DNA of 64,000 nucleotides. It comes from Myxococcales bacterium. GTDB taxonomy: Bacteria > Myxococcota_A > Polyangia > Polyangiales > Polyangiaceae. Below, piece after piece: positions 4,429 through 23,800 of this stretch. Position 1 is the stretch's first letter, and every line of letters begins with the position of its first letter. Location: NCBI GenBank assembly GCA_903642325.1, contig CAHJWM010000027.1, forward strand, positions 1 through 64,000, given 5' to 3'. Position numbers and translations under genes: made by a program. A model generated the notes under the pieces. That model was not told the origin of the DNA. It saw nothing but the letters and a program-made list of their open reading frames with translations, and ran no database searches.

Positions 4429-4440
4429 GGAGCGGCTCCT

Positions 4441-5454
4441 TTATGCGATGCGCTTGTCGGTCTGGGACTGGGGCGTGCCCGCGGCAGCCTGAGCGAGCGC
4501 TCGGATGATGCCGCGCCGGCCGAGCTCGATCTTGAAGTCGTTTGCGCCTTGGCCGACAGCGCCAGCCAGCAGCGCACGGGCCGCTTCGTCGAATGATGCG
4601 TGACCTGGCTCGCGCTCGACCAGCAACTCCTCGGCCTCGCGTCGACGCCAGGGTTTGTGCGCTACCCCACCCATCGCAATTCGCGCTTCGGCGATCTTGC
4701 CTTCTTCCAGCCTGAGCCCGACCGCGATTGAAACCAGCGCAAAGGCGTAGCTTCTCCGGTCACGCAGCTTCAGGTAAGTGTAGTTGGTCGCGAAGCCCTT
4801 CGGCGGCAGGTCGATCGCGGTGACGAGCTCACCGGGGCGCAGCGTGTTGTCAGCCCAGGGTTCGTCGCCGGGCAGGCGGTGATACTCCGCAAAGGCGATC
4901 TCGCGATCCCCGTCCGGCCCGGTCACCTGCACCTTGGCCTCCAGCGCCGCGAGCGCGACGCACAGGTCGGACGGGTGAGTGGCGATGCACTGCTCGCTCG
5001 CCCCGAGGATCGCGTGGATGCGGGTGAAGCCGCCGATGGCGCCACAGCCCTGGCCGGGCTGGCGCTTGTTGCAGGGCGTGTCGGTGTCGTAAAAATAATA
5101 GCAACGCGTGCGCTGGTTGATGTTGCCGCCATTGGTCGCCGCGTTCCTGAGCTGCGGGCTTGCTCCGGCGAGGATGGCGCTCGCGACCACCGGGTAACGC
5201 CGCTGAACCTGCTCGTTATAGGCCGTCTGACTGTTGGTCACGAGCGCGCCGAGGCGGAGCCCGCCATCGCCCAGCTCCGTGATCCCGGTCAGTGGTAGGC
5301 GGTTGATGTCGACTACCTTCAGAGGCCGCGCGACATTCTCCTTCATCAAATCGACGAGGTTCGTGCCACCAGCGAGATATGCCGCATCGACCGGCGTTCC
5401 GGAGCGGATGGCCGCGTCTATATCGCCCGGACGCGTATAATCGAAACGGATCAC
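4441..5454 (-). CDS. paoB: Aldehyde oxidoreductase, FAD and 4Fe-4S subunit (PaoB-type)
   Basis: The 337-residue protein passes electrons from the iron-sulphur subunit to an acceptor. FAD-binding motifs are AGGTNLVDLM (about 28-37) and NAATNGGNI (about 104-112). Four cysteines, C118, C128, C137 and C156, in an inserted loop (RCYYFYDTDTPC, QGCGAIGG) match the extra 4Fe-4S cluster that marks PaoB-type medium subunits. I chose the GTG at 5454, which overlaps the stop of the upstream gene (GTGA); the frame remains open further upstream but that part is only the 2Fe-2S gene read out of frame. Middle gene of the three-gene operon. Confidence 0.9.
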   Translation of the reverse strand: MIRFDYTRPGDIDAAIRSGTPVDAAYLAGGTNLVDLMKENVARPLKVVDINRLPLTGITELGDGGLRLGALVTNSQTAYNEQVQRRYPVVASAILAGASPQLRNAATNGGNINQRTRCYYFYDTDTPCNKRQPGQGCGAIGGFTRIHAILGASEQCIATHPSDLCVALAALEAKVQVTGPDGDREIAFAEYHRLPGDEPWADNTLRPGELVTAIDLPPKGFATNYTYLKLRDRRSYAFALVSIAVGLRLEEGKIAEARIAMGGVAHKPWRRREAEELLVEREPGHASFDEAARALLAGAVGQGANDFKIELGRRGIIRALAQAAAGTPQSQTDKRIA

Positions 5455-5981
5455 GCGCGCTCCATTGATTCGAGCACTTCGAGCACCGCGTCGGCGATGT
5501 TGGTGTAAGCGCCGCACCGGCAGATGTTCCCGCTCATCTGCTCGCGGACCTCGAGTCGGGTGCGCGCACGGCCCTCGTTGATCAGGCCCTGCGCAGAGCA
5601 GATTTGGCCCGGCGTGCAGTAGCCGCACTGAAACGCGTCATGCTCGATGAACGCGGCCTGAAGCGGATGAAGATTTCCGTCCTGACCCAGGCCCTCAATC
5701 GTCGTGATCTCACAGCCGTCAAGGGTGACTGCGAGCTTGAGGCAAGCATTCACGCGCGTTCCGTCGATCAGCACAGTACATGCGCCGCACTGCCCATGAT
5801 CGCAGCCCTTCTTGGTGCCGATCAGGTCCAGCTTGTCACGCAGCAGGTCGAGCAGCGTCGTCCAAGGCTCGATGACGAGCTGTCGCTCGACCCCATTGAT
5901 GGTGAGAGTCGTTGCAATTTCGGCGATGGGTTGCCCTGCCAAGTGCTGCAGCTCTGAGTTCGGTGTGAAGACTTGGCTCAT
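5451..5981 (-). CDS. paoA: Aldehyde oxidoreductase, 2Fe-2S subunit (PaoA-type)
   Basis: A 176-residue two-cluster ferredoxin-like subunit. The plant-type 2Fe-2S cluster is held by C60, C65, C68 and C80 (GCDHGQCGAC); the second, helical-domain cluster by C119, C122, C154 and C156 (CGYCTPGQ, CRCG). It carries electrons from the Mo site to FAD. A GAGGTGG element 7 bases before ATG supports the start. No Tat or Sec signal is visible at the N terminus, whereas E. coli PaoA is exported by Tat; this complex may therefore be cytoplasmic, or the true start may differ. First gene of the operon, co-directional with the FAD and Mo subunits. Confidence 0.92.
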   Translation of the reverse strand: MSQVFTPNSELQHLAGQPIAEIATTLTINGVERQLVIEPWTTLLDLLRDKLDLIGTKKGCDHGQCGACTVLIDGTRVNACLKLAVTLDGCEITTIEGLGQDGNLHPLQAAFIEHDAFQCGYCTPGQICSAQGLINEGRARTRLEVREQMSGNICRCGAYTNIADAVLEVLESMERA

Positions 5982-8823: not shown

Positions 8824-9795
8824 TCAGCTACGCGGGTCATTCATGGCCAGACGCGGCGGGATGCGCTCCGCCAAAAAATCGATGAAAGCCCTCACTTTCG
8901 CCGTCGCTCGCTGGCCCGACGGGTAAATGGCATCGATTGTAAACTCTGTGCGAGAGAAGTCTGCGAGCACTTCGATCAGAGTACCACTTCGAACGTGGTC
9001 GGCTACGACGAAACCGGGGACGCGCGAGAGACCGACGCCCGCCAAGGCGGCGAGGACCAGAGCTCCTCCGTTGTTCGAGGAAAAATTTGGCGTTGTCGGC
9101 AGCACCACCTCTTTGCCCCCGACGTCGAACCTCCAGCGGTGCATGGCTGGGCTCGATGTGTAACGAAGCAGCACATGTTCGGTTAGGTCAGTGGGCGTCC
9201 TTGGAACACCTCGTTTAGCGAAGTAAGCGTTCGATCCCACCACCACGAACCTGTCTCGCGCCAGCCTTCGTGCGGAAGCAAGGACGTCAGAAGAGCGGCT
9301 GACCCTCACCACGACGTCCCAACCGCCGGCGACTAGGTCGACGAACTGGTCGTCGAAGCACAGGTCCAGCTCGATTCGCGGATACAGCTCCAGAAATTCG
9401 GGCGTGATGGGTGCAATGTGCATCGAACCGAAAGAATTGGACGTATTCACTCGCAAGCTGCCGGCTGGCAGGGCAGCCATGGATTTGACGGTGCTTTCAG
9501 CGGCTTCGACGTCCGCGAGAATTTGAGTCGCGCTCTCGAGCAGCGATTTGCCCGCCTCGGTCAGCTCCACGTGGCGAGTCGTTCGAAGTAAGAGTTGGAC
9601 GTTGAGGCGCGCCTCCAGACGCGCGAGGCGCTTGCTGATGGTGGCTTTTGTCGTATCGAGCGCCCGGGCCGCTCGAGAAAACGACTGCGCCTGCGCGACG
9701 CGCACAAAAGCCGCGAGGTCGGCGAAGTCTTCCAAACCGGTGGATGGCCTCGCGAGTCGCAAGGCTGTCGTCACTCTCTGTACTGGTTTGAGCAC
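8824..9795 (-). CDS. LysR-family transcriptional regulator
   Basis: 323 residues. The winged helix-turn-helix is at about 21-80 (FVRVAQAQSFSRAARALDTT, then KRLARLEARLNVQLL), followed by a substrate-binding domain of the periplasmic-binding fold (about 110-310, GSLRVNTSNSFG and GVGLSRVPGFVV). Length is slightly above the typical 300, because the first 20 residues precede the usual LysR start; a TTG at 9735 or GTG at 9774 are alternative starts. No divergent partner: the next gene (antiporter) is co-directional and 37 bases away on the upstream side, so the regulated gene is unclear. The aromatic-acid type of CrgA-like LysR is the closest class by eye. Confidence 0.88.
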   Translation of the reverse strand: MLKPVQRVTTALRLARPSTGLEDFADLAAFVRVAQAQSFSRAARALDTTKATISKRLARLEARLNVQLLLRTTRHVELTEAGKSLLESATQILADVEAAESTVKSMAALPAGSLRVNTSNSFGSMHIAPITPEFLELYPRIELDLCFDDQFVDLVAGGWDVVVRVSRSSDVLASARRLARDRFVVVGSNAYFAKRGVPRTPTDLTEHVLLRYTSSPAMHRWRFDVGGKEVVLPTTPNFSSNNGGALVLAALAGVGLSRVPGFVVADHVRSGTLIEVLADFSRTEFTIDAIYPSGQRATAKVRAFIDFLAERIPPRLAMNDPRS

Positions 9796-9832: not shown

Positions 9833-11182
9833 CTAGTGCTGGTGCAAGGCGAGGCCGGCCGCGGGAACGGTGGCCCGCCCGCTCGGCGGTGGATCCGCGA
9901 GGATCTCCTGACGAAGCAGAATCCGAATCAGTGGCGTTGCAATGTACGTGGAGGCCAACGCCATGACCACGAGCATCGTAAACATCGTGCGCGGCAAAAC
10001 CCCCAGATCGTAACCAACATTGATCGCGACCAACTCCATCAGCGCGCGAGTGTTCATACATACTCCAATCGCCGCTGCTCTTCGCTGGCTCTCTCCACCG
10101 AGGCGCGCGCCCAGATAGGCGCCACCGAATTTGGTTACAAAGGCGATCATCACGACGAGCAGGCACACCAGCCACTGGGACGCGCCAGCCAAGGCGCCGA
10201 TGTCCGTACGGAGACCGGTGAAGGCAAAGAAAATCGGCAAAAAGAAGCTACTTACCAGGGGAGAGATACGGACTTTCCACTCCTCTACGAATTCGCGATC
10301 GTCATGAAGCGCAACGCCCATGACGAACCCCCCGATGATTGCGAACACACCGATACTGGATGTGGCAGTGGCGGAGATGAAGAGGGCCAAGAGGATCCAG
10401 CCGATGGCGCTCGCGTCGAGCCGCCCGTGTCGTTCGCGATGCGTGCGCAGCGCCCGCTTTAGCAGGGGACGGCATAGGAACAAGACGAAACCGAGATAAG
10501 CCGAGAGCGCGACCAGCCGCTCGAGGCACCAGCTGACGGAGAACTCACGGCGAGCAATCAAAGTCACGCAGCCAAGCAAAAGCCAGCCCACCACATCATC
10601 GATGGCGGCCGCGCCAACCGTCAAAGCCGCGGTTCGCGTATGCGAAAGCCGAAGCTCCATGAAAATTCGCCCGAGGATCGGAATGGCCGTGATCGATAGT
10701 GCAATCCCGAAGAACAGGCGAAACCCAAGTAGATCGGGCCGCGGCTCCGGCATCCGCGCATAAAACCAGCCAGCGGTGGCCAAGCCGCTGAAGAACGGAA
10801 CGATCATTCCGGCCACGCTTACCAGGGCAACGGTTCGTTTCGACGCACGAAGAGCGTTCTTGAACTCGAACTCCAAGCCGATCTGGAACATCAACAAGAC
10901 CAGACCAACCTGCGCAAAGCCGATGAAGATTTTCGACGTCGAGGGGTCGAAGATGGTGTGCATCAGATTCGGAGCGAGCGCCCCGAGCGCGCTAGGGCCG
11001 AGCAACACCCCGGCAAGGATTTCGCCCGCGACATCGGTTTGCTTCAGCTTTTTAGCGGCCCACACCACGACTCGAGTGGCAACCAGGATCGCCACGATCT
11101 GAACGAGCATGTGGCGCACGATCGATTCTGCCGAGCTCCCAAGGGAGCTCTGGACGCCATTCGCGGCATCCGGCAGGTTCAT
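9833..11182 (-). CDS. Cation/proton antiporter (CPA2 / KefB-like)
   Basis: 449 residues with about 12-13 membrane helices, the transmembrane unit of a monovalent cation/H+ antiporter in the inner membrane. Family signatures are GEILAGVLLGPSALG near residue 53, FQIGLEFE, and AIDDVVGWLLL near 205, the Asp-Asp helix expected in CPA2 exchangers. It lacks the C-terminal RCK/TrkA-N nucleotide-binding domain of KefB/C. The start ATG overlaps the stop of the upstream di-iron oxidase gene (ATGA, 11179-11182), so it is translated with that oxidase operon. It may balance ions or pH for the pathway, or export a charged product; this is inference. Confidence 0.9.
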   Translation of the reverse strand: MNLPDAANGVQSSLGSSAESIVRHMLVQIVAILVATRVVVWAAKKLKQTDVAGEILAGVLLGPSALGALAPNLMHTIFDPSTSKIFIGFAQVGLVLLMFQIGLEFEFKNALRASKRTVALVSVAGMIVPFFSGLATAGWFYARMPEPRPDLLGFRLFFGIALSITAIPILGRIFMELRLSHTRTAALTVGAAAIDDVVGWLLLGCVTLIARREFSVSWCLERLVALSAYLGFVLFLCRPLLKRALRTHRERHGRLDASAIGWILLALFISATATSSIGVFAIIGGFVMGVALHDDREFVEEWKVRISPLVSSFFLPIFFAFTGLRTDIGALAGASQWLVCLLVVMIAFVTKFGGAYLGARLGGESQRRAAAIGVCMNTRALMELVAINVGYDLGVLPRTMFTMLVVMALASTYIATPLIRILLRQEILADPPPSGRATVPAAGLALHQH

Positions 11183-11997
11183 TGCGCGCTCCTGGCAAGC
11201 GGCGCGTGCTTAGCGAGGCTCGCCCGTTCCACTAGGTCGTCTAGATAACGCTTCGACGTTTCGAGACAAGTTGCGATCCCCTCGGCAATCAGCGGGCGCA
11301 CCGACGGGTCTCGGGCGATGCTGGGAGCGATCACGTCGTCGAGCCACTCGCGCGCGTGGTCGTCGTCGCAATCGAGATGGACGCGAATGAATTCGCAATC
11401 TCGCTTGCCAAAGCCGAGCCGCTCGAGCCCGCGGCCCATGTGGATCAGCCGATGACGCGCCATCGCTTCGACCGCGAACAGCGATCCGACGAGATGCCAA
11501 GGCTCGAGATAATATCCGTAATAAAAGACCAATGTGCGATCGATCAGGCTCGGGTAGACGGCGATGGGCACGGGACCTGCTGCGCGTTTGACGGCGAGAA
11601 AAAGCCGACGCATCAAGTCGGCGTGTGGCTCGGGAACGTGCTCGTCTTCGATGTTCCTGAGGATGGCGGCTCGCCCGCGCTCGGTTTTTTGCACCGCCAA
11701 GGTTTTAGACACGAGACCCAAGAAAGATGGGTACGCCCAGTTCTCGAGCAAAAATGAGGCGTACTCTTGCACAGTGAGCGCTTCCGCCAGGTGCTCGTAA
11801 AATTCATGCCGGTGAGCCACATGGTTCGAAACGGCCGCCCCCCAGTCCGCGTCGTCCCGGGCGGCGATGGCTTGACTTGCCGCGCGGTCGCGCTCGCGTT
11901 CGGCGTCCCACCAGCGCTCGAGACTCACTGAATCCTCCGCCGAGAGCTTTGATCCCATTCGTTCTGCACAAGCACGCAAGAGTGATTCGTCGGTCAT
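11179..11997 (-). CDS. Haem-oxygenase-like di-iron oxidase (HDO family)
   Basis: 272 residues, all helical. The ligand pattern of haem-oxygenase-like di-iron enzymes (UndA, SznF relatives) can be read in order: a Glu in HEFYEHL (about 65-68), E117-x-x-H120 (NIEDEH), E177 (GSLFAVEA), and H207-x3-D211-x2-H214 (HLDCDDDH). All six metal positions seem present, so it should be active. Known members use O2 to desaturate, decarboxylate, N-oxygenate or cleave C-C bonds of amino- or fatty-acid substrates. ATG follows the P450 stop by one base, and its own stop overlaps the antiporter start. It could be annotated elsewhere only as iron-containing redox enzyme or TenA/PqqC-like protein. Confidence 0.82.
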   Translation of the reverse strand: MTDESLLRACAERMGSKLSAEDSVSLERWWDAERERDRAASQAIAARDDADWGAAVSNHVAHRHEFYEHLAEALTVQEYASFLLENWAYPSFLGLVSKTLAVQKTERGRAAILRNIEDEHVPEPHADLMRRLFLAVKRAAGPVPIAVYPSLIDRTLVFYYGYYLEPWHLVGSLFAVEAMARHRLIHMGRGLERLGFGKRDCEFIRVHLDCDDDHAREWLDDVIAPSIARDPSVRPLIAEGIATCLETSKRYLDDLVERASLAKHAPLARSAQ

Positions 11998-11998
11998 G

Positions 11999-13405
11999 TC
12001 ACGTTCCGATGAAGGGGCACGCGGGAGGTGGCGCGCGGGGAGGTTCTTGATGGGCGAAATAGCTGCGGCATAAACCGAGACGCCGTGCGTCGAGCACCAT
12101 GTACGTGCCCAGCACGAGTTGAATCAGGCTTCGCCCCACGTCTTCCCAGCGGTCGCGCATTCGAAGCCAGACGAGCGAAAGTCTGCGACGGGCCTTGCCG
12201 GCTTCACCGTTCGAAGCAGGGCCGCGTGGGACGAGCAGGCAGGGTCCGCGATTGCTGAGCGAGCGTGTGTGCAGCGCGCTCGACGCCAGGCTAAAACCGC
12301 GCAGTATTTCGCGTGTAACGCTGCGCATGGTGATGAGGGCCATGGCTTGCGCCGGGCAGGAGCGATTTTCCGGTACACCAAAAGGGATGTAGTTGGAGTC
12401 GCGGACCGAAAGCTTTTTCCAGCGCTCGGGATCGAAGCGCTCGGGCGAGGTGTAGCCGCTGCCGTGATAAGCTGGGTAATCGAAGCAAAGCACGGTGCCT
12501 GCTGGTATCACCGGTTCACCCGCTTTGCCGGGGATGGCACTGGACGTGATGCGGTGCGCGATCCCAAACAGCGGATACAAGCGAAACGTCTCGGTGACGA
12601 CGCGATCGATCGCGCGGTCGTCGTCGAGTGCGACGACTAGACGCGCCAACTCTACCGGGTGCTCGGCAAGAGCCAAAAGAACGTGGGCCATCGCTTCCGA
12701 CGATTGGACAATGGCAGTATTGAAGAAAACACCCTGTAGATAAAGCGCCTTCTCTGCGTCGCTCAGGCCCGCAGGGAGCGTGTGAGTCACTTGCCCATTG
12801 GCGATCTGAGCCTCGAGGTAGCGCGTCAGGCCGGCGCGACGCTCCATATGTCGAAGGCTCAGGCACTTGAGCGCGGTGACGACGTCGTCGGCGTTGCCAA
12901 CGATCAACGCTCGCGCCTCGGCGGTTGGTGGCTGCCCGAAAACGAGCGTGTGATAGAATTCCGCCCAAATTGGCATCATCAGATCGCGTAGGCGCACGCA
13001 GGTGGGCGTCTCGATCTTCGCCTCGGCGAGCACTCGCGACGTCGCTTGCGTCGCCAAGCCTTCGGCAGCGTGCTTGGGAATCGCAAGAATCCGGCGTGTT
13101 GCCGAGGCGACCTGGTCGTAGCGCGGGCCAGGCTCTAGGTGCTCTTGGTGCAGCTCGGGGCCGGGGGCAAGCCAGTACCAGAATAGGTCCGAAAGCGCAG
13201 CGCCGCGACTTCGCCCATTCGACGCGGGGCTCGCGTAGAGCTCTTCGAAACGGTCGATGCCGATATTACCGGGGACCGAAAGGCCCTCTGGCCCGTTTAG
13301 CGCGGTGAAAACTCGCATCCGAAGCCGCACAACGAGCGGAGGCAGCCACCAGGGCATGCTGATGAGGCCAGCGCCAACCAGAAGAAGCCCGACTACCGCG
13401 CTCAT
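11999..13405 (-). CDS. Cytochrome P450
   Basis: 468 residues. ExxR is E272-R275 (ETFRLYP); the haem loop is FGVPENRSC with ligand C350. The N terminus is hydrophobic (MSAVVGLLLVGAGL), unusual for a soluble bacterial P450 and suggesting membrane association. The I-helix region (GVFFNTAIVQSSE, about 225-237) lacks the usual acid-threonine pair that handles O2 protons, so chemistry may be atypical. After the haem domain there is an extra tail of about 80 residues with no known motif. I chose ATG 13405 because it overlaps the stop of the upstream FMN enzyme (ATGA); the frame is open further upstream but inside that gene. Confidence 0.9.
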   Translation of the reverse strand: MSAVVGLLLVGAGLISMPWWLPPLVVRLRMRVFTALNGPEGLSVPGNIGIDRFEELYASPASNGRSRGAALSDLFWYWLAPGPELHQEHLEPGPRYDQVASATRRILAIPKHAAEGLATQATSRVLAEAKIETPTCVRLRDLMMPIWAEFYHTLVFGQPPTAEARALIVGNADDVVTALKCLSLRHMERRAGLTRYLEAQIANGQVTHTLPAGLSDAEKALYLQGVFFNTAIVQSSEAMAHVLLALAEHPVELARLVVALDDDRAIDRVVTETFRLYPLFGIAHRITSSAIPGKAGEPVIPAGTVLCFDYPAYHGSGYTSPERFDPERWKKLSVRDSNYIPFGVPENRSCPAQAMALITMRSVTREILRGFSLASSALHTRSLSNRGPCLLVPRGPASNGEAGKARRRLSLVWLRMRDRWEDVGRSLIQLVLGTYMVLDARRLGLCRSYFAHQEPPRAPPPACPFIGT

Positions 13406-14454
13406 CGCGCGCTCCACGTCGTCACCGCTGAAGCACCGACGTCGGAGAGACGAGCGATTCCGCAAAGCGCTAACGCACGCCTGACTTCTTCGGCAAACAG
13501 GGTGAGCACTTGCTCTACGCCGCGTTGACCAGCGCTCGCGAGTCCCCAAATGACCGGCCGCCCGATGCCGACCGCTGAGGCACCGAGCGCAAACGCTTTG
13601 ATGACGTCTGTGCCGCGTCGAACGCCGCCGTCGACCAGAACCGGGATGGCGCCGCCGACTGCGGTGGCGATCGCGGGCAAGAGGGCTATCGCAGGCGGCA
13701 TTGAATCCAGCTGTCGACCGCCGTGATTGGAGACGACGAGCGCGTTGACTCCGTGTTCCGTGGCGAGCACAGCATCCTCAGGATGCGCAATGCCTTTCAG
13801 CACGATGGGTAGATCGGTCTTGCTACGAAGCCAGTCGATTGCCTCCCACGAGAGGTCGGGGGTAAAGGCGATTTTGCGGACTTTGCCGGATTTATCGCGC
13901 ATATTTTCACACTCGAGACCAACAGGTAGATCCAAAAAGCAGTTGCGAAGGTCGCGTTCACGCAGGCCCAGAACCGGCGAGTCGACGCTGACCACGATCG
14001 CCGAACAGCCGGCGCGCTCCGCGCGTCGGACTACTGCTTCGGTGAACGGGCGATCGGGCTGCACGTACAGCTGGAACCAAATGTCGACCGTCGGGGCCGC
14101 CTTACGCACATCTTCGATCGAAACGGTCGACGCCATGCTCGCAATGAACAGCGCGCCGGCCGCCTGACAGGCCCGCGCCGTGGCGACTTCCCCGTCCGGA
14201 TGCGCCAGCTTGTGAAATGCGGTTGGCGCAACGACGACGGGCGAAGAAAGCGATAAGCCGAGCAGCGAGGTCCCGAGCTCGACGGCCTTCACGCCGCGCA
14301 GCACACGCGGCACCAGGCGGATAAGCTCGAAGGCGGCTTCGTTATCGCGCAAAGTCAGCTCGTCCCCGGCCCCGCCCGCAAAAAAGTCGTAGACCGCGGC
14401 ATCGAGTGAGCTCCGCGCGAGCCCTTCGAAGTCACGCAAGCGGAGAGCCGTCAT
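13402..14454 (-). CDS. FMN-dependent alpha-hydroxy-acid oxidase/dehydrogenase
   Basis: 350-residue TIM-barrel flavoenzyme that oxidises an L-2-hydroxy acid to the 2-oxo acid. Signature pieces are DFFAGGAGDELTLRDN (25-39), the substrate tyrosine in WFQLY (130), lysine K220 in VLKGI, and the catalytic loop SNHGGRQLD with H244 and R247. Phosphate-binding VDGGVRRGTDV and GIGRP follow. Glycolate oxidase, lactate oxidase and 4-hydroxymandelate oxidase share this fold; the short, soluble form is closest to the last group. It starts 3 bases after the flavoprotein gene and overlaps the P450 gene by 4, so it is firmly inside the operon. Confidence 0.92.
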   Translation of the reverse strand: MTALRLRDFEGLARSSLDAAVYDFFAGGAGDELTLRDNEAAFELIRLVPRVLRGVKAVELGTSLLGLSLSSPVVVAPTAFHKLAHPDGEVATARACQAAGALFIASMASTVSIEDVRKAAPTVDIWFQLYVQPDRPFTEAVVRRAERAGCSAIVVSVDSPVLGLRERDLRNCFLDLPVGLECENMRDKSGKVRKIAFTPDLSWEAIDWLRSKTDLPIVLKGIAHPEDAVLATEHGVNALVVSNHGGRQLDSMPPAIALLPAIATAVGGAIPVLVDGGVRRGTDVIKAFALGASAVGIGRPVIWGLASAGQRGVEQVLTLFAEEVRRALALCGIARLSDVGASAVTTWSAR

Positions 14455-14457
14455 CGG

Positions 14458-16047
14458 CTAAACCGCTAGTGAGGCGTACGGAGCGCGAGCACCACCGTGA
14501 ACCCCGAGCTGACGCTCGAAGAAAGCGAGCAGCGGCTCGCGATGAGCGACGTCGTCCGTCCAATCGTTTTCCAGATTCTCGGCGACGTGGTGTACAGAGA
14601 CGACTTCTCCTCGCACATAGAAGCGGATCACGGGATGCAAGTAGTGCCCCTCGTGCGCACGCGCCGGGTCGTTCTGTGCCGCACGCCCGACTTCGACATC
14701 GAAGGGGTCCTTCTTGTCGTGATCGGGACCGTACTCCAGGGTGATCGAAAAGAAGCTACCGCTCGGGTTCAACTCGACTGCGCGGTCGAGCGGCTGCTCT
14801 TCGCAATACCGCGCGTGCTGGCGAGCGCCGAGATAGATGATATCTGCCATGAAGCCAAATAGCTGCCAGAGCGCCGACGTGCGGTTGACGCGCGCAAGCA
14901 CCGTATCGGCGAGAGTGCCTGGGTCGAGCGGCAGGTCGATAGACGGCCACTGCCTGCCTTCGAAATTCTCATCCAGGATCCGCGCCAGAGCGCGGACGCT
15001 GTATCGGAAGCCGTGCACGAATCCATTGGTCGACTTCTTGAAGTCGCGCACCTGCATCAACGTGCCGGCAAAGTAAAGTCCGGGAACATTGGTCGACTCG
15101 AACGAAGACGTCTGCTTCGGAAACTTCGCCGAATGGACGAGCTCCGGACGGCACTCGGCGTCGAAAATGCTGTCGTCGAAGCGAAAGCCAGTGCAGACGA
15201 TGACGCGATCGTAGCGGATCGCTTTTTTGACCTCGTTGGCTCGAGAAAAACTGAAGGTAACGAGATACCGGCCGTTGTCTTTTTCGACCGACACGAGGTT
15301 GCCGTCGAGAATCGCATTTTGCGATTTCAGTTGATAAGTGTCGAGGAAGTTGTTGTTTACTGCGCGCAAGTGACCCACGTAGTGGGTACGCCAGGCGAAG
15401 CGCAAAGAGCTCGGCCCGGCAACGTGAATCGCCGCTGCGGTTCCAACCAAGTTGTCGGCCGTCTCGAAGGCCGAGTTCCCTTTGCCGAGAATGAGCACGC
15501 GCTGATTGATGAAGCCTTGGGGATCGACCGAGACATCTTCGTACTTTTCCGCCAAGTCGATTCCGGGCACGGCCGGAATGAACGGCTTTGAAACACCGGT
15601 GGCGATGACGAGGTGCTTCGGCTGGTATACGGCACCCTGCGAGTCGGTAAGGGCGAAGCGCGAGCTATGCCCATTTCGCTGTAATCGCGAGACTCTTTCG
15701 ATACGCGTGTTGTAGAGCACCGGCAGCGCATGGCGCTCGGCGAAGTCTGCCAAGTAACGAACGTAGTCTTCCGCGCTCGGAAAGTAGGCCTGTGAGAAAG
15801 TAGAAAAACGCCTGTCCTGCCGATCTTCCAGGAGCGAATTCCAATCCATTCGCAAGTTGTGCTCGGGGTCGTCCGACCCGGTATTCACCTTATTTACGGA
15901 GATCAGCGTGCGATGCCGCGGAAACGTCCGGAAAAAAGTCGCGGGGCCTGCTCCGGCTTCGAAGATTGAAACATCGGCACCCGAGCTCCGCAAAAAATGA
16001 CCGAGCTGCAATCCGGCAGGGCCGGCTCCGAGAATAGCGTAGTCCAT
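14458..16047 (-). CDS. FAD-dependent monooxygenase-like oxidoreductase (FOXRED2-like)
   Basis: 529 residues. FAD-binding GAGPAGLQLG is at residues 7-16 and a second Rossmann motif for NAD(P)H, LILGKGNSAFETAD, near 205, the arrangement of class B flavin monooxygenases. ATGVSKPFIP and FAGTLMQVRDFKKS are further flavoprotein signatures. The C-terminal 150 residues (from about 380) are an added domain seen in FOXRED2-type proteins. Start ATG 16047 has GGAGAGG two bases upstream; the frame is open to 16383 but without a ribosome-binding site. It is the first gene of the five-gene operon. Likely a hydroxylase of N, S or ketone; substrate unknown. Confidence 0.88.
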   Translation of the reverse strand: MDYAILGAGPAGLQLGHFLRSSGADVSIFEAGAGPATFFRTFPRHRTLISVNKVNTGSDDPEHNLRMDWNSLLEDRQDRRFSTFSQAYFPSAEDYVRYLADFAERHALPVLYNTRIERVSRLQRNGHSSRFALTDSQGAVYQPKHLVIATGVSKPFIPAVPGIDLAEKYEDVSVDPQGFINQRVLILGKGNSAFETADNLVGTAAAIHVAGPSSLRFAWRTHYVGHLRAVNNNFLDTYQLKSQNAILDGNLVSVEKDNGRYLVTFSFSRANEVKKAIRYDRVIVCTGFRFDDSIFDAECRPELVHSAKFPKQTSSFESTNVPGLYFAGTLMQVRDFKKSTNGFVHGFRYSVRALARILDENFEGRQWPSIDLPLDPGTLADTVLARVNRTSALWQLFGFMADIIYLGARQHARYCEEQPLDRAVELNPSGSFFSITLEYGPDHDKKDPFDVEVGRAAQNDPARAHEGHYLHPVIRFYVRGEVVSVHHVAENLENDWTDDVAHREPLLAFFERQLGVHGGARAPYASLAV

Positions 16048-17029
16048 AGCCTCTCCAAATCGCGCCCCATCGCGCGGTGTTGCGAGTCGGGTAATTGCAC
16101 GCACCCAATGCAAAGTGTAGGCCGTTTTCGGAAACACTCTGTTCGCGGCAAGTAGTTCGGCGCTGCGGAGCAGGTCGCACTCTTGGAAGATCACGTCCTT
16201 TAGCGCTGTCTTCGTACGCAATTTGAAAGCGTGCGCCGCGCCAGCGTTGGAGCTCGTGCGACACCCACGCAACGTAAGCCCGAGGCGCGGGTCTGGCCGA
16301 CGTATCCCCGATACTAGTAAGCCCCGCGCTCCCAGCGCTACTCTGCAACCGCAAGTTGTCAGCGCAGGTTTGCACTTGCGCAATTTCTAGACCTAGTCGC
16401 CGGTGCGACGTCCAGCGGGTCGCAGCTCGCTGCTCCCGCTTCAGCCGCGCCGGCCTCGCCCGCTTGGCTTGCGTTAGCATCGATACCACCGGTACCGGCA
16501 CCGGCGCTGGCGCCGCCCGCGCCCGCGCTACCACCCAGCTCAGCGCCGCCGGCGCCAGCGCTCGTGCCGAAGCCGCTAGCGCCCGCACCGGCGCCCGCCA
16601 ACCAAGTTGCTACCGATGATCAAGTCCAACTTCGAGCCAGATCCCGAGATCGGGCCTACGGCAAATCGCCCGAGCCAAGCCGGCGCACGCAGCCGCACTC
16701 GACACGGCGCCTAAGCGAACCAGCCTCCTAGTCCAATGAATGGCCACCGCGCCGGCGAATGTAGCACTCCGAGCATGAATCGCGCTTTGGCTCGTGGGCT
16801 GAGCGATTGTGCCTCGAACACGGGTGCTCGCAGCGTGGCGGTGGGCGCCACCGCGACGGGTCGAACTCGCGAGGGCCACTACGAGCCCGTTCGGCTCGTC
16901 GGGCAAGCCGTGATAGGCGCACACCGGCGTGTCCGTGACAGTCGAAGTCGGTCGTCGAATCAAGTCCAATTCTGACAGCGATGTCAGAGCGCGCTTGCGG
17001 GCGCCGCGCGAGACGCCTCGAATCATGCG
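16048..17029. other. Promoter side of the oxidase operon and gene debris
   Basis: About 980 bases. The operon promoter must lie in 16048-16350, but no strong -35/-10 pair stands out. A Gly/Ala-linker fragment lies at 16359-16601. Minus-strand frame 16610-17026 has an implausible, motif-free translation. No RNA gene seen. Confidence 0.4.
16359..16601 (-). pseudogene. Gly/Ala-rich lipoprotein-linker fragment
   Basis: The frame translates to about 60 residues of Gly/Ala/Ser linker (GAGGAELGGSAGAGGASA) followed by a short polar tail containing one Cys (AASCDPLDV). Such linkers occur after the lipobox in myxobacterial lipoproteins, as at 1-286 and 62373-63533. Here no signal peptide precedes it (an in-frame TGA lies just upstream) and no domain follows. 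Either a remnant of such a gene or a chance GC-rich frame. Confidence 0.3.
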
Positions 17030-17625
17030 TCGATCGGGCGCGGCATTGTCCGGAGTAGACGGCGGGCTCGAGCTTCGCGGTGGCGCCTTCCCGAAGGTGC
17101 AGACCCCTTTTCGTTCGCGGTAGCGCTCGGCATGCGCCGCGGCAACTGGGGCTTGTTCGAGAAAGCCAATCGCGACTCGCGCGAAGAGCGCGTGCGCCTC
17201 GAAGCTTATCCGCGTCTACTCACAACGAAAGAATTCGCCTGAGTCTGATCGCGACCGCAGGTCTGAGCTTTGGCCGACGCTATCATCCGTTGATCGCGCC
17301 GGCACGCTTTCACCCGATAAACGAGGACAACGAGGGGACCTATCCCGGCCCCACGCTGGACCCGCAAGTGCTACGCGACGAAACGCGCGTCGAAGGCAGC
17401 ATCGGCGTCGAAATGCGGGAAAAGCGAGTCTTCGCTAGCCTGGTATTGATGCCCTATCTGGTCGCCGCCTCGGGTTCACCCAGCGGGTCGTGTCGCGTGT
17501 GCGATCACTGGGACCTGGACAGTTACCATTCGAACTTCGGGGCCGCCCTGTTCTTCTCGTTCGGTATCTCATTTTCGCTCACGAAGTCGCGCCTGCCAAC
17601 GAGAGAGCGACCAAATTTTGCTTAA
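17030..17625 (+). pseudogene. Frameshifted outer-membrane-protein-like gene
   Basis: Three successive plus-strand frames each carry plausible beta-barrel sequence that reads as one protein if two shifts are repaired: GVDGGLELRGGAF (17030-17095), then DPFSFAVALGMRRGNWGLFE and REERVRLEAYP (about 17097-17230), then RIRLSLIATAGLSFGRRYHP to GAALFFSFGISFSLTKS (about 17230-17610). The shifts fall near 17095 and 17230. Alternating hydrophobic/polar residues and the aromatic, Gly-rich strands suggest an outer-membrane protein C terminus. No family name is possible, and the N terminus is missing. Only the last segment would appear as an uninterrupted frame. Confidence 0.4.
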
Positions 17626-17733
17626 CTGATTTCGGTGCAGTTCTTCTCGACTGCGCTGAAGTGCCGGCGAGGGCGCTTCGCAACTGTCTCAAGTGCAGCC
17701 CTGCTTAAGCCTGGTGAAGCCGCGCTCTTACTT

Positions 17734-17990
17734 TCAAGCGAGCCGGCAGGTCCAGATTTTCGAAATGGTTTGGGCACGATCTGAGATCCATTCTCCGCCT
17801 ATCGGTACATAGATCACCAGGGGGGAGCCGTCTCACGTGACGGTGGCACAGGGGGCGCTCCTTTCTGCCGCACCCGGGAGCTAGCGCCGTCGCTGCAACT
17901 GCTGCAACCGCCGACGGCGAAGAACGCCGAGCTGCCAAGGAGCGCAAAAAGAGCGACGGAGCCACGGCCCGAGGGCCCGAGTGACGAGCT
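17734..17990 (-). pseudogene. Frameshifted small lipoprotein remnant
   Basis: One minus-strand frame holds an excellent lipoprotein signal, SVALFALLGSSAFFAVGGC, then SSCSDGASSRVRQKGAPPV, ending at TGA 17816-17814. Just before that stop is a run of six C; adding one base there continues the reading as LVIYVPIGGEWISDRAQT to a stop at 17736-17734. No start codon is found in frame before the signal. So both the start and the middle are damaged. It could be a degraded gene or reflect a sequencing error in the C run. Confidence 0.35.
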
Positions 17991-18146
17991 CTGCCACGTT
18001 GTAAGTGTTCCGAACGACGCGTTTGACTATGCGCTCTCGTGAAGGAACCCGATCAGCCTGTCAGTGCTGACCGCCAAAAAGCGGGCTCAAGTCCAACGTG
18101 CGCGCGACGCTTAGCCGGCGCCTGCGCGACCGGTTCGAAGACGGCA

Positions 18147-19700
18147 TCATTCAGGTGTGCCCAACTCAATGAGCCGTGCGTCAAGTGAGGCGATGAGCTC
18201 TGCGGCGGCATCCTGCGTCGACAGGCCTTCATGAATGGCCCGGAGCACGCGCTCTTTCTCCACGATCACGAGGCGACGCCGGACGCTGCGCCGCTCTTCC
18301 CCGGCGAGCACTGCGTCCGCAACGTGAAGGGCGCGGGCACGCGCGTTTGCCGCGCTGAGGCGCTCTTTGTATTCGGCGCGTAACTCCTGAAGCAGCGAGG
18401 TGTCGATGACCTGAGCGTTCGCGAGCACGTCCAATTCTTGCAGACCGGCACCAGCGGCCAACGCATCAGCGCGCGCGAATTGATAGCTGGCGGTCAGGAC
18501 GCGATCCGAAACAATCCCGAGCCGCTTGAGCAATGGCGCCATGGTACTGCCCTGTACGAGAATTGACACGACCACGACGCCGAAGACGACATTGACCAGG
18601 AACTGTCGGTGTGGAAATGCGAGCGGCAGCGCAAGCACGAGCACCATGCTGAGGCCGCCGCGGATACCACCCCAACTCATGATAGTGGCCCACCCGCGGG
18701 GCAGGCGCTCGCGAGACCGCCTAAGAAGCAGCGATACGACCCCGACCACGACCGCGCGTGCCGCCGTTGTCGCGACCCATGCAAGCAAAACAGTACGCCA
18801 CGCGGCCAGCACCTGCCAGAGCTCGACTTCAAAACCGATCAGCAAGAAGACCAGCGAATTTAAAGCGAACGCTAAGTAGGCCCAGAAACTAACGACCGCG
18901 ATCTTGGTCGTAGGCGACATTCCGGTGCGCGCGCCATAGTTGCCACAGAGCAGCCCAGCACTGACCGTCGCTAATACGCCCGATGCATGCGCCTCCTCCG
19001 CTAGCGCGAACGACCCCCAGGCGACCACGACGGTCACGGTAATCTCTATCATTGGGTCGTCCACCCAGTGAATGACTTGGCTACCGACGTAGCCGATCGC
19101 GGCGCCGATTAGAACCCCGAGTCCGCACGTGCGCACGAATTCGGAAGCGACGCTAACTGGGGTGACCGTTGACCCGCTGGCCAGGGTCAAAATCACTCCG
19201 AACAAAACGACGGCGGTACCGTCGTTCAGTAGGCTCTCGCCTTCCACCAGTACCCCGAGCCGCTTCGGCACACCGAGGCTCTTGAATAGTGCAACTACCG
19301 CAATTGGGTCTGTGGCAGCCACGATTCCGCCGAAGACAACGCCGTCAATCAGTTTGAAGCCTTGCTCCAAGCGCAGACCCTGCACCACCGGCGAAAGAAT
19401 GAAAGCCGTCACGCAAATCGCCGCAATCACCCCGGGTACGGCGAGCCCGCAGACCGCAAACTTGTTTGCCCAAAACTGCTTGGCATCCAAATGAAACGCC
19501 GCTTCGAAAAGCAGCCCGGGCAAGAACACGGCAAACAACAAATCTTTACTCAAGTGCGGGGCATGCACCCACTTTCCCGCTCCAATAATCAGGCCCGCAA
19601 CGACGAGCGCCGCCGTGTACGGCAACTTAAGCCAGCGTGCCACGAGCGCGACCGCGGTGGCGATTGCGAATAACGATATAACGACGAGCTCGAGGCGCAT
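18147..19700 (-). CDS. Sodium/proton antiporter (CPA1, NhaP-type)
   Basis: 517 residues: about 12 membrane helices (1-390) and a cytoplasmic helical tail. Signatures are GLIIGAG near 40, FLPGLLFEAAFHLD near 58 and the ion-site region ATDPIAVVALFKSLGVPKRL followed by EGESLLNDGTAVVLF, the standard CPA1 ND motif. It exchanges Na+ or K+ for H+ across the inner membrane. Upstream, on the same strand, lie the MscS, ATPase, secreted-protein and ClC genes, so it sits at the end of an ion-transport block, with its own 227-base leader. Confidence 0.92.
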   Translation of the reverse strand: MRLELVVISLFAIATAVALVARWLKLPYTAALVVAGLIIGAGKWVHAPHLSKDLLFAVFLPGLLFEAAFHLDAKQFWANKFAVCGLAVPGVIAAICVTAFILSPVVQGLRLEQGFKLIDGVVFGGIVAATDPIAVVALFKSLGVPKRLGVLVEGESLLNDGTAVVLFGVILTLASGSTVTPVSVASEFVRTCGLGVLIGAAIGYVGSQVIHWVDDPMIEITVTVVVAWGSFALAEEAHASGVLATVSAGLLCGNYGARTGMSPTTKIAVVSFWAYLAFALNSLVFLLIGFEVELWQVLAAWRTVLLAWVATTAARAVVVGVVSLLLRRSRERLPRGWATIMSWGGIRGGLSMVLVLALPLAFPHRQFLVNVVFGVVVVSILVQGSTMAPLLKRLGIVSDRVLTASYQFARADALAAGAGLQELDVLANAQVIDTSLLQELRAEYKERLSAANARARALHVADAVLAGEERRSVRRRLVIVEKERVLRAIHEGLSTQDAAAELIASLDARLIELGTPE

Positions 19701-19927: not shown

Positions 19928-20842
19928 TTATAGCGCAACGGCCGGGCCAAGCATGCGGTGCAAAATCGCTGGCGGCCCGATGTCATGTTCTCGGAATGCC
20001 TCCAGCACACGAAAATGCACGTCTGTTTCGAACGGCTTTTCGAATTTGCAGTCATACACGTAAGGCCGCGCTTTCAAATGAAACGCTACGTAGTCCTGAA
20101 GAATGACTTGTTTGGCCAGAACGGGAATAGGCTGCGCCAAAAACACGTAAGGGCTCGTGAGGCATGCTTCTCGGATCAACTCCGCGGCTAAGACGACGTC
20201 TTGATCTATACCGACGTAGAAGTCCATGGCCACCTGCATTTCCAGCGCTCCATAGTTGCCGCTGGAAGTGACATCGGTAAACACCTTGTTGTTCGGGATC
20301 GTGATTATATTGTGATCGAGTGTATTCATGCGCACGCTACGCAGGCCGATCTGGATGATGTCCCCGTATTCTCCTCCGTATGACACACGGTCGCCGACCT
20401 GGAAGGGCCGATCGAACATGATGGTTATACCTGCGATGAATGACGCCACTAGGTCGCGCAGAGCAAAACCGACCGCGAACGCCAGCGCGCCGCCGATAAC
20501 GGTCAAGGCGGTCGGATCGAGCCGGATGCTGATGCTGAGCGTGAGACCAAATGTCAAAATGTAGAGGATGAAGCGCGCGGACGTCTGAACCTTTTGGATG
20601 GTCGGACGTCGGTTCGAAAAGCGCGTGCTCAAGCGCTCGCCCGCGTTCTCCACCAGTCGAATCAAGAACATCGCACCGACGATGATTGGCACCGACGCCG
20701 CAATTCCGCCCCAACGGACGAACTCAGCGATGCGGCCCACGTTCGGTACGTCCTGTGCGTACGCGGAGGTCGACTTGGCCATGACCAAGAGTAGCGATAC
20801 AAACATCGAGCCGGACCGACGCTTGAAGCATAAGGCGCTCAC
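19928..20842 (-). CDS. Mechanosensitive channel of the MscS family
   Basis: 304 residues. A signal-like N terminus (n-region KRRSGS, hydrophobic FVSLLLVM, then STSAYA and QD) precedes two or three membrane helices; the pore helix reads ALTVIGGALAFAVGFALRD, then the MscS beta domain begins RPFQVGDRV and GDIIQIGLRSVRMNTLDHN, as in the family. Start chosen as GTG 20842, overlapping the stop of the upstream ATPase gene (GTGA); ATG 20806 is an alternative that would drop the basic residues of the signal. It should open in the inner membrane under tension. Translational overlap with the ATPase gene strongly suggests one complex. Confidence 0.88.
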   Translation of the reverse strand: MSALCFKRRSGSMFVSLLLVMAKSTSAYAQDVPNVGRIAEFVRWGGIAASVPIIVGAMFLIRLVENAGERLSTRFSNRRPTIQKVQTSARFILYILTFGLTLSISIRLDPTALTVIGGALAFAVGFALRDLVASFIAGITIMFDRPFQVGDRVSYGGEYGDIIQIGLRSVRMNTLDHNIITIPNNKVFTDVTSSGNYGALEMQVAMDFYVGIDQDVVLAAELIREACLTSPYVFLAQPIPVLAKQVILQDYVAFHLKARPYVYDCKFEKPFETDVHFRVLEAFREHDIGPPAILHRMLGPAVAL

Positions 20843-23800
20843 CGGTTCACCAACAGGTGCCGCCGCTCCAGCAGCCCAACGACCGAACGCAGCCATGCCC
20901 ACTCGACCCTAAAGCCCTGGTCTTTTTCGATGAGGTAGCCGTGCTTCAAGCCAAACCTGACGGCAGTCAAAACATGTGCTTCGGCAAGTCGCGTGGCTGA
21001 TGCGATTTCGGCCGTCGTAGCAGGGTCCATTTGCATGATGGCGCGTAGGATGAAGAGCGCGGAGTCTGGCAATAACTCGAGCTCGCCGGCCTCTGGAGCG
21101 ACGAGCGGGCGTACCCGAGCAAGTCGCCTCGCGTCGCCGCTCAGAGACGCTCGCCAAGCCTCCAACGCCATGGCGGGGTTTCCTCGAGCATAATCCCAGA
21201 CCATCCGAAAGTAAGCGACCCTCCTAGCCGCCAATGCATCTTGTCGGTCAAGCTCGTCAGCGGCAGCAGGAAGTTTCTCAAGGAGGTCGACGAAGGTTGG
21301 CTCGAGGTCAGCTTCGGCGGTGCGCATAGTCAGCAGCGCACCAATCTGGTCGTCCGTCCAAGGGCCCAGTACGAACACCTCATCGAACAGGGGTCTCGCA
21401 TCGCGGGCTCGCTTCAAAAACGGCCAAATCACCGCGTCGATGGCGAACACCCACAAGGTGTCTGCGCAATGGCTACGTGCGAACGTGCTTGCCTCGTCGA
21501 ACGCTTCGAGCCCGCCGCGTAGGGGTTTGATCAGGCGCTGAGCGTCGTCGAGGAATACCAGCGACGGCGGGGTTGAGCCGGGTTCTCCCAGCTCAAAGCG
21601 CAATTGTTGCGCGGCATCCGTTCCGCACTGGACGCAAACCGAGTCGCTCACGTCGTCGGCAAGTCGACGCTGGAGTGACGACTTCCCCATCCCGCGAGCC
21701 CCGACGAGCGCGACCAGCCCTCCTCTCCGATCACGCGCGCGGGTGACCAACGCCGTCTGGTGAGAGTCTGCAAAGCAAGGCACCCACCCCTTCGAGCTCG
21801 TGCCCGGTGAGAGCGCGGCAAAGGCGGCTGGGGGCAGCGGTGTGGGCGCTTGCAACGGTTGGTCGCTAGCAAGACGAGCAAGCTCACGTTTGAACAGATA
21901 CGCATGAGCGCGGCGCGCCAAGTTGAAGCTCGTTACCCAGTTGCGAGAGGTTCTATAAACACCGACCGCGAAAAGCAGAACCGCCGCTACCATCGCGGCA
22001 AAGAAGCTCTTCCAGCCCCTGCGATTCGCAAGCACCCACGCTCGAAGCTCGGAATTGCGTCGCTCGCGCTCGACGCGTTCGAAGACGACTTCCCGCCACC
22101 AGCGAACGAGAACGAGGAAGACGGGGACGGCCGCTAACCAGCATGTCGAATATACCCAACTATAGACAGTCCCCTTTCCCACTAGTCTCGCGCTGACCCG
22201 CAGCACCAGAATAAACGCGACAACGACACGGCCAACGAGCCTCAGGGAGCGGAGCCGTAGCGCGCCCATCTCCTCTGCGCTTCGAGCTCCGGCGAAATGC
22301 GCTGTTGCAGCGATGGCATTGATTACATTCACGATCAACGCGCCGCCAAGCGTCCAGCCTACGACGATCTCGACCAATTGAAATTCGAGAAGCCGCTCGG
22401 CGTCGGTAGGCATGAGCCACAAGGTCACGGCGAAGAAAAGTAACCTTTCGAGAGTTCGATAAAAGCCCGTCAGAAATCGGACCGCCTTGCGAGGTGTGCT
22501 GGGCGCAGTGCGGCGCTCGCGCCGATCCGATTCAGCGAGCCGCTCGTCCAGCAACAGAATCCAGACCGCGCTTTTCCGGCGGAGTGCGACGAAACCAATG
22601 ATGGCTAAAATCCAAGGCACCAGTACGGCCGTGATTCCCCAGAACGAGACTCCTTTGATCTTTTGCCGGTGCCGCAGGTCGGCGATCCATCCCTGAGCGA
22701 CGTATCCGTGGTAGCGCAAGATGAGTAGTAGCTGACGAGCCTCTGATCGCGATTGGTCCAGGCCGGCTCGAGTAAAGCCCGTAATACCCGCCCGCTTGTC
22801 GATAGAGAGGGACGACAGCAGACCAAGCCGGTCTCGGTTCAACGCGTCGACTTCGTCGAGTAACGCAGAGGCTCGTTTTGCGCGAAACGCGCGTTCGTCG
22901 CTTCGAGCCGCGTCGATCTGCCTTTCGACCTCACGTCTGCGCGTCAGCACCCCCCCCTCCGCTATCTCACTAGCCACGTCGCTGAGTGAACTCGACCCAA
23001 GATCGGGAACCGCTGAGTCAGAGGTGTTTAGCGCGTCGAGGGCGTGGTCAAGGTCGTCTCGTGAGCCTCGAAGCGTGCGGCGCACGGCGTCGTAGGTGTC
23101 GTCCGCGGTGGAGGGCGTGGCCTTTGCGTCGTCCACCCGCTTTTGCCAACCCAAGAGGCTATCTTTGCGCGTTGCCAGCTCGACACCAGCGTCCTTGAAC
23201 TGGCGCTCGATGCCGGCAACGTCGCGCTGGATGCCAAGCAGCCGAGCGAGCTCCTTGTTTACGAGGCGCGTGGCCTCCGTGCGGGCCTGTTTCGCTGCCT
23301 CCAGGGCCTTGGTCCTTTCGACCTCGGCTTCGCGAGCCTGACGTTCCTCCGGCGTTTCTTTGGGTTTCGCGGCCTCTACTCGGGCTCTTTGCGCTGCCAA
23401 CAAAGACTCGCGCTGCGGTTGAGACAACGAGTAGAAGTCGAGGCGAGCCTGATCTAGGTGTTCGCGGTCTAGCCACTGAGGTAGGGACGTAACGGGTGCG
23501 CCTGCGGGTGCGGGCGCCGTACTCGAAGGAGATGCGGCCCACTTTGGCTTGGCTTTTGCCGCGAGCACGGCGGCGTGACCCGCACGATCTCTGAGTGCGC
23601 TGAGCATTGCTTCCAGTCGAGCGCGCTCGACCTGGACGGCGGTCTCGTCCGTCAGAATTGCATCGAATAAGCCCTGTGGTTCGATCGCCACGGGCAGCTG
23701 ACCCGCCAACAGCTCCCGTATCTCGACGACGCGGGGGTCCCCTTCTTCAACGCCGGCGTCGACAACCCGAGCGTCACTCGCGCCGCCAGCATCTTCGCCT

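Follow-up and report, generated by a model that had tools for sequence, protein, structure and literature searches.

A conserved oxidative operon with an atypical cytochrome P450 in a Myxococcales bacterium

The window analysed here, a stretch of 64,000 nucleotides, corresponds to positions 1 to 64,000 of contig CAHJWM010000027.1 from a Myxococcales bacterium of the family Polyangiaceae (GCA_903642325.1). It carries a conserved oxidative operon of five genes encoding, in reading order, a flavin adenine dinucleotide (FAD)/NAD(P)H flavoprotein (hereafter FMO, for flavin monooxygenase), a flavin mononucleotide (FMN)-dependent alpha-hydroxy-acid oxidase or dehydrogenase (HAO), a divergent cytochrome P450, a haem-oxygenase-like di-metal oxidase (HDO) and a CPA2-type cation/proton antiporter. 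These products belong to known enzyme superfamilies, and no description of the cluster was found in the open-licence literature under FOXRED2 with bacterial or biosynthetic gene cluster, HDO with P450 and flavin, Microbulbifer with oxime or haem-oxygenase-like, or four-enzyme combinations. The operon very probably serves small-molecule biosynthesis and is tentatively read here, at somewhat less than even confidence, as a scaffold-free set that would start from an amino acid or an amine and yield a specialised metabolite, small and N-oxidised. Its most interesting part is the P450, which lacks the usual O2-activation motif.

Organisation and recurrence of the gene set

The operon fills positions 9833-16047 of the minus strand with clean start and stop codons (Table 1), and since the spacings between its genes are only +3, -4, +1 and -4 bases it is likely to be transcribed as one unit; a pattern scan revealed no strong promoter directly upstream. 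All five products exceed the Pfam cut-offs of their families (PF13738/PF07992, PF01070, PF00067, PF14518 and PF00999). A first-pass annotation, made from the sequence alone, had described five oxidative genes joined by overlaps or tiny gaps and devoid of any scaffold-building enzyme. The reading frames, families and spacings bear this out, and no polyketide synthase, nonribosomal peptide synthetase (NRPS) or terpene synthase occurs among the open reading frames (ORFs) listed at 4-24 kb around the operon, the remainder of the window not having been scanned for them.

Table 1. Features of the operon in the window and their occurrence among the six loci compared
Feature	Position	Strand	Remarks
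FMO, FAD/NAD(P)H flavoprotein, 529 aa	14458-16047	minus	first gene; C-terminal extension conserved; in 6/6 loci
HAO, FMN-dependent alpha-hydroxy-acid oxidase/dehydrogenase, 350 aa	13402-14454	minus	in 5/6 loci (not in Nonomuraea)
Divergent cytochrome P450, 468 aa	11999-13405	minus	hydrophobic N-terminus; C-terminal extension conserved; in 6/6 loci
V233-Q234 codons of the P450, at the I-helix acid and threonine positions	12704-12709	minus	register by distance to conserved Pro; V and Q in 6/6
Atypical haem-cysteine loop of the P450, FGVxxNR(S/P)CPA (F342-C350)	12347-12382	minus	in 6/6
HDO, haem-oxygenase-like di-metal oxidase, 272 aa	11179-11997	minus	in 4/6 loci (not in L009, Nonomuraea)
Predicted HDO ligand residues E119, H125, E177, H207, D211, H214	11356-11643	minus	by alignment to HrmI and BesC; invariant in 4/4
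CPA2-type cation/proton antiporter, 449 aa	9833-11182	minus	last gene; membrane domain only; in 3/6 loci

The gene set, or part of it, was found at six loci: the window itself; L004 of Microbulbifer rhizosphaerae, the one relative recovered by an HDO scan of a named genome collection; L025 and L026, from the family of Microbulbifer; L009 of genome G429, from the window's own family; and L005 of Nonomuraea gerenzanensis, recovered by a protein search of plasmid records (the record is labelled plasmid yet is 11.85 Mb long). L004, L025 and L026 share the order FMO-HAO-P450-HDO with 45-55% identity to the window (55%, 50%, 48% and 47%, respectively, for L004). L025 and L004 are near-identical (93-97%), so that the number of well-separated loci is five rather than six. 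L009 presents the order FMO-HAO-P450-antiporter, with identities of 62%, 56%, 58% and 66%, and has no HDO, the HDO profile giving one weak match elsewhere in that genome (4.5e-4). In Nonomuraea, an acyl-AMP ligase gene precedes those of the FMO (59%), the P450 (54%) and then a CPA2 antiporter; neither an HAO nor an HDO was matched beside them within the 31.5 kb examined. Ahead of this ligase gene, on the opposite strand, lies a sulfotransferase-family gene (PF17784; L005 12610-14914). Across the six loci the genes overlap by 4-50 bases or are separated by gaps of at most 56, with the exception of 131 bases between the P450 and the antiporter in L009.

Pairwise identities of the different proteins covary across loci (r = 0.96 to 1.00 over 6-15 locus pairs, which are non-independent as they share loci, and one of which is near-identical). 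Given a gene order repeated in different phyla and identities that covary, the operon is more than a chance neighbourhood: it is a real co-inherited unit, a statement about which we have hardly any doubt, and its standing as a conserved biosynthetic unit is well supported.

The unit is thinly spread. Of 108 genomes from the window's family only two, G429 and the one that holds the window, gave its P450, and of 144 from the family of Microbulbifer three gave the four-gene set. Beyond the query's own genome, the P450 was not found in the 377 phylum, 293 order (that of Microbulbifer) and 321 class genomes searched, the best 4-5 candidates per genome having been scored, so that distant members may be missed. 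The HDO search of the 377 phylum genomes likewise returned the query's own only, that of plasmid records gave three weak partial matches (the one in Nostoc being flanked, according to its annotation, by only hypothetical proteins and transposases), and scans of viral contigs with the FMO and P450 found no relative. The first-pass annotation had staked its reading on the genes being conserved together in relatives; they are conserved together, but across phyla, the P450 occurring in 0/7 other genomes of the window's genus and 1/107 other genomes of its family. Such a patchy distribution is expected of accessory metabolism, and horizontal sharing of the operon is the best reading.

In a tree of 15 FMOs, the six cluster FMOs form one clade (100/99) apart from the nine others, inside which the window, G429 and Nonomuraea group together (89/89) and the Microbulbifer type stands on the opposite side (100/99). 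The simplest ancestor on this tree would be the four-gene form, with one HDO loss (G429 plus Nonomuraea, fork 87/82) and one HAO loss (Nonomuraea); the inner fork of G429 and Nonomuraea is not resolved by the P450 tree. Since the four-gene form is found in two distant lineages, it is probably ancestral and the losses later. These data bear on an alternative in which the FMO and P450 alone would constitute the functional unit (amine to oxime to product), with the HAO, HDO and antiporter as interchangeable tailoring or protection parts differing by product. The tally agrees with it, the FMO and P450 being present at all six loci, the HAO at five, the HDO at four and the antiporter at three; so does the situation in Nonomuraea, where the P450 directly follows the FMO (13 bases) and the antiporter comes from a different CPA2 branch. 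However, where present, the HAO is nearly as conserved as the core (47-50% identity between the two main branches of loci), and the probable ancestry of the four-gene form, with later losses, also weighs against this alternative. We regard it as unlikely, if worth keeping in mind. In either case the five genes can no longer be taken as a single inseparable set, as the first-pass annotation had done: the FMO and P450 are invariant while the HAO, HDO and antiporter are modular.

The antiporter matches PF00999 (3.1e-49; 168.2 bits for a cut-off of 26.2) with no other domain in its 449 aa, and lies below the TIGR00932 (CPA2) cut-off (129.5 vs 238.3). Membership of the KefB/KefC type of glutathione-gated K+ efflux systems was rejected (KefC 47 vs 752 bits; no C-terminal regulatory domain found). 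Its 66% identical orthologue in L009 occupies an equivalent position and forms one clade with it (100/100), and the Nonomuraea antiporter sits on a separate CPA2 branch. No antiporter gene lies downstream of the HDO in Microbulbifer and none was matched by tblastn in L025 and L026. With absence beside 3/6 cores and two CPA2 branches, it was rejected as a core member, and a single ancestral antiporter is not supported by the tree (6% of bootstrap trees). Judging by these sequences, either the antiporter was swapped or an antiporter joined the same core independently in two lineages. Another PF00999 protein, a 517-aa member of the Na+/H+-exchanger family, is encoded at 18147-19700 in the window, on the operon's strand and 2 kb upstream of it.

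The atypical P450 and its flavoprotein partner

PF00067 matches only the C-terminal part of the P450 (1.6e-12; 47.4 bits for a cut-off of 22.8), and alignments with solved P450s likewise start mostly where the I-helix ends. The protein is 45-58% identical to the other five cluster P450s. The ExxR motif (E272-x-x-R275) and the haem-ligand cysteine C350 are invariant in all six. Two other signatures depart from the canonical ones, again in all six. In the first case, the I-helix stretch reads TAIVQ or TAVVQ, and the acid-alcohol pair of the canonical (A/G)Gx(D/E)T(T/S) is replaced by V233-Q234. Because a profile comparison with the ordinary P450 of locus L027 aligned the C-terminal part alone, the I-helix register was set by a proline found at +16 from the catalytic threonine in 10/10 motif-bearing P450s of genomes G429 and G000, a count that omits an eleventh P450 (that of L027, in which the motif is lacking) and further P450 loci of G429. 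In the second case, the haem-cysteine loop has one extra residue from Phe to Cys when compared to FxxGxRxCxG and an alanine at Cys+2, and none of the six conforms to FxxGx(R/H)xCxG. PF00067 detects a single further P450 in the window's genome. P450s devoid of an acid-alcohol pair frequently act as isomerases, dehydratases or peroxygenases, or depend on their substrate, and some still hydroxylate; the atypical motifs are therefore a lead rather than a proof. On balance, they suggest that the cluster P450 is probably not a canonical O2-activating hydroxylase.

The same features could be explained by a supply of peroxide. The P450 would then be a peroxygenase that alpha-hydroxylates an acyl compound or fatty acid with H2O2, the HAO would make the 2-keto acid and return H2O2, the HDO would cut or decarboxylate the product, and the flavoprotein would be auxiliary. 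Such a loop would account for the missing acid-threonine relay and for the lack of a redox partner in the operon, and is consistent with an HAO closest to hydroxyacid and glycolate oxidases, with the fatty acid decarboxylase UndA belonging to the HDOs and with the fatty-acyl-ligase-like gene preceding the Nonomuraea FMO. We nevertheless hold it to be improbable, as Nonomuraea keeps the P450 though the HAO is missing beside it, the haem loop and V-Q pair differ from the Arg-Pro signature of CYP152 peroxygenases, the HDO is nearer to amino-acid enzymes (its profiles match HrmI and BesC only, not UndA) and the invariant FMO would be left unexplained. Still fainter is the chance of a new P450 class, defined by the V-Q pair and the longer loop, that would work in a closed, O2-based H2O2 loop with the HAO and no redox partner, the HDO then cutting or N-oxygenating.

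The FMO, which we take to resemble FOXRED2, matches PF13738 (7.8e-42) and is 54-62% identical to the other five cluster FMOs. A 20-row alignment displays a FAD motif, a GKGNSAFE motif, an invariant N52-K53 pair (20/20) and the conserved C-terminal extension. It is a putative monooxygenase. Membership of the group B FMOs was rejected, the window FMO having no match to PF00743 at 1e-3 and the signature motif of that group not being seen.

FMOs of this class are widespread in other settings. In the family of Microbulbifer, 12 were found in 11/144 genomes, of which three accompany the four-gene set (L004, L025 and L026) and nine do not, one of the latter (L033) being on a contig of only 10.7 kb. 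In the relatives of G429, nine occur in 6/59 genomes and 8/9 have no HAO, P450 or HDO beside them, one contig of these nine being 6.8 kb long and another stretch ending at a contig end. Neighbours, named partly from translations and partly from Pfam matches, include NRPS and TauD-like genes in L029, an adenylating enzyme with a carrier domain in L033, and cupins and an ordinary P450 in L027. The FMO family was thus rejected as a marker of the pathway (9/12 and 8/9 places being elsewhere), because a class so widely distributed does not by its presence alone mark it; the comparison points to the FMO as a general tailoring flavoprotein and to the P450 as the specific mark.

Other loci of this FMO family were also recorded. 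Tandem pairs of FOXRED2-like flavoproteins, with no P450, HAO or HDO, occur in two genomes of the window's family, at L047 (8844-12243) and L049 (8747-12006). In L030 (7170-11929), such a flavoprotein has as neighbours a cupin and a gene of the indoleamine-2,3-dioxygenase family (PF01231), pabA/pabB-like genes lying at a greater distance, and may belong to another aromatic-amine pathway. L031 (9125-14479) and L032 (9070-14624) have in common the order of a flavoprotein, a PaaK-like adenylating enzyme, a short-chain dehydrogenase/reductase and a cysteine-desulfurase-like pyridoxal phosphate gene, the L032 locus adjoining tryptophan-pathway genes.

Proposed pathway and genomic surroundings

The HDO (PF14518 2.5e-17; 63.7 bits for a cut-off of 28.9) is 47-48% identical to its three orthologues and keeps the full E-H-E-H-(D/E)-H metal-ligand set, as defined in PMC11363339, from which a di-metal site is predicted. 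When a four-row HDO profile was compared with solved structures (E up to 5), only HrmI (8.6e-11, in an alignment covering only about one third of the window HDO) and BesC (1.5e-4) were matched, and UndA was not. BesC, the 4-chloro-allylglycine synthase, is a C-C-cleaving enzyme that acts on an amino acid. HrmI converts the side-chain amine of lysine to a nitro group (PMC13108848). With these as nearest solved relatives, an amino-acid or amine substrate is favoured, and the N-oxidation or chain cleavage proposed by the first-pass annotation stays plausible, HrmI standing for the former and BesC for the latter. The HAO is complete both by profile (PF01070 4.1e-125; 417.9 bits) and by its residues K220, H244, R247 and Y130, which are invariant in 5/5 and have catalytic roles in glycolate oxidase. 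Hydroxyacid oxidase 1, glycolate oxidase and lactate oxidase are among its nearest solved relatives, and the matched structures as a whole span H2O2-forming oxidases, dehydrogenases and monooxygenases.

The amine or amino-acid bias of the HDO, the invariant FMO and P450 pair and the loss of the P450 O2 relay together suggest a pathway of N-oxygenation with a non-canonical P450 step. The flavoprotein would N-oxygenate an amine to a hydroxylamine or an oxime, on which the P450 would work without the usual O2-splitting relay, either as a dehydratase or isomerase (for example from oxime to nitrile) or as a peroxygenase. The HAO would convert an alpha-hydroxy acid of the pathway to a keto acid, the HDO would carry out a further N-oxygenation or a C-C cleavage leading to the product of the HDO-bearing version, and the antiporter, in the versions that have it, may provide ion or pH balance or self-protection. 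There are precedents for such chemistry: an aldoxime is produced from an amino acid by the FMO SCO7468, the nitrile arising by later dehydration (PMC3617294); a millipede FMO is accompanied by P450s that dehydrate aldoximes (PMC12671775); and oxime formation and cleavage are carried out by the HDOs FlcE and FlcD (PMC11363339). That N-oxidation is central to the pathway has in our view a little less than an even chance; an oxime-to-nitrile step specifically is doubtful.

Several points weigh against this proposal. N-oxygenation by the FMO is conjectural, because the group B motif FxGxxxHxxx(Y/F) was not seen in the 20-row alignment and because the protein is as close to YpdA as to monooxygenases, its family profile giving similar matches to YpdA disulfide reductases, small flavin monooxygenases and ferredoxin-NADP reductases; among the four O2-using enzyme types counted by the first-pass annotation, the flavoprotein is thus the one whose use of O2 is only presumed. 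Oxime dehydration by the cluster P450 is hypothetical, and the HAO has no obvious place in a route from amino acid to nitrile. In Nonomuraea, the acyl-AMP ligase gene ahead of the FMO and the lack of a nearby HAO or HDO suggest that the substrate may be acylic in nature instead of a free amino acid. Finally, AlphaFold models built from three-row alignments were too poor for use (mean predicted local distance difference test score of 53 for the FMO and 48 for the P450).

The surroundings of the operon bear on another alternative, namely a catabolic or detoxifying operon that would oxidise an environmental compound, nutrient or poison, with the antiporter acting against acid or ion stress. P450s, FMOs and HAOs are all used in catabolism, the patchy horizontal spread would fit, and a LysR regulator gene (8824-9795) is the next gene downstream, on the operon's strand. 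Yet at these loci the core is accompanied by no uptake gene, CoA step or ring-cleavage step, save the acyl-AMP ligase of Nonomuraea, and no regulator is common to the loci, LysR lying beside the window operon and an AraC-type one beside L009. A catabolic role therefore has little probability.

Upstream of the operon, about 2 kb (16400-18100) are without a convincing gene. Two ORFs there, at 16610-17026 (minus) and 17080-17625 (plus), match no Pfam family, and the end of the latter resembles the tail of an outer-membrane protein, perhaps as a gene remnant. Further on, an MscS-like gene (19928-20902) adjoins a 956-aa ORF (20839-23709) that has no Pfam match at 1e-5 and in which a coiled coil, membrane helices and an ATPase-like domain were recognised by eye. 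A molybdenum hydroxylase trio (molybdopterin subunit, FAD subunit and, by eye, 2Fe-2S subunit) occupies 2170-5981 of the minus strand.

Returning to the biosynthetic reading, the operon is a small transferable gene set of a kind that cluster finders keyed to scaffold enzymes would probably miss, and its P450s form a subfamily for which the sequence predicts unusual chemistry. Its small size, of only four or five genes, and its presence in Microbulbifer, a culturable genus, put its product within direct reach of testing. Should the P450 turn out to be a dehydratase, or a peroxygenase supplied by the neighbouring enzyme, the operon would offer a compact way for bacteria to make nitriles, oximes or keto acids, as well as a P450 system free of redox partners.

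Comparison with known systems

Among atypical P450s, CYP74, CYP152 and P450nor work without the usual acid-threonine proton relay, but the V-Q pair and FGVxxNRxCPA loop of the cluster P450 match none of their known signatures. A likeness by reaction is offered by millipede cyanogenesis, in which, according to PMC12671775, the FMO ChuaMOxS acts together with CYP4GL4, CYP30008A2 and CYP3201B1, P450s that dehydrate an aldoxime, itself an atypical P450 reaction. This system is from an animal, its FMO is of group B and the clusters are not homologous.

The HDO has counterparts in two directions. HrmI/BelK and BesC share the H-x3-(D/E)-x2-H ligand spacing of the window HDO and differ in their gene partners. 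The fluopsin C cluster is alike in being tiny and in its HDO chemistry (FlcE and FlcD) on an oxime derived from an amino acid; the FlcA-E pathway, as described in the excerpts of PMC11363339, includes no P450, HAO or FOXRED2-like flavoprotein, and the ligand set of FlcD is mono-iron E-H-E-H-V-R, that of the window HDO being E-H-E-H-D-H.

The last system is the SCO7467/SCO7468 (Type B) cluster of Streptomyces coelicolor, which leads to 5-dimethylallylindole-3-acetonitrile. It differs by an indole prenyltransferase and a conservon, with no HAO or HDO described in the excerpts of PMC3617294, and PMC12671775 places SCO7468 in group B of the FMOs, the window FMO being without the motif of that group. 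It is nevertheless alike in being a very small cluster with an FMO-type flavoenzyme, and clusters of the SCO7468 type, some of which carry a P450, follow the logic of amino acid to aldoxime to nitrile (PMC3617294).

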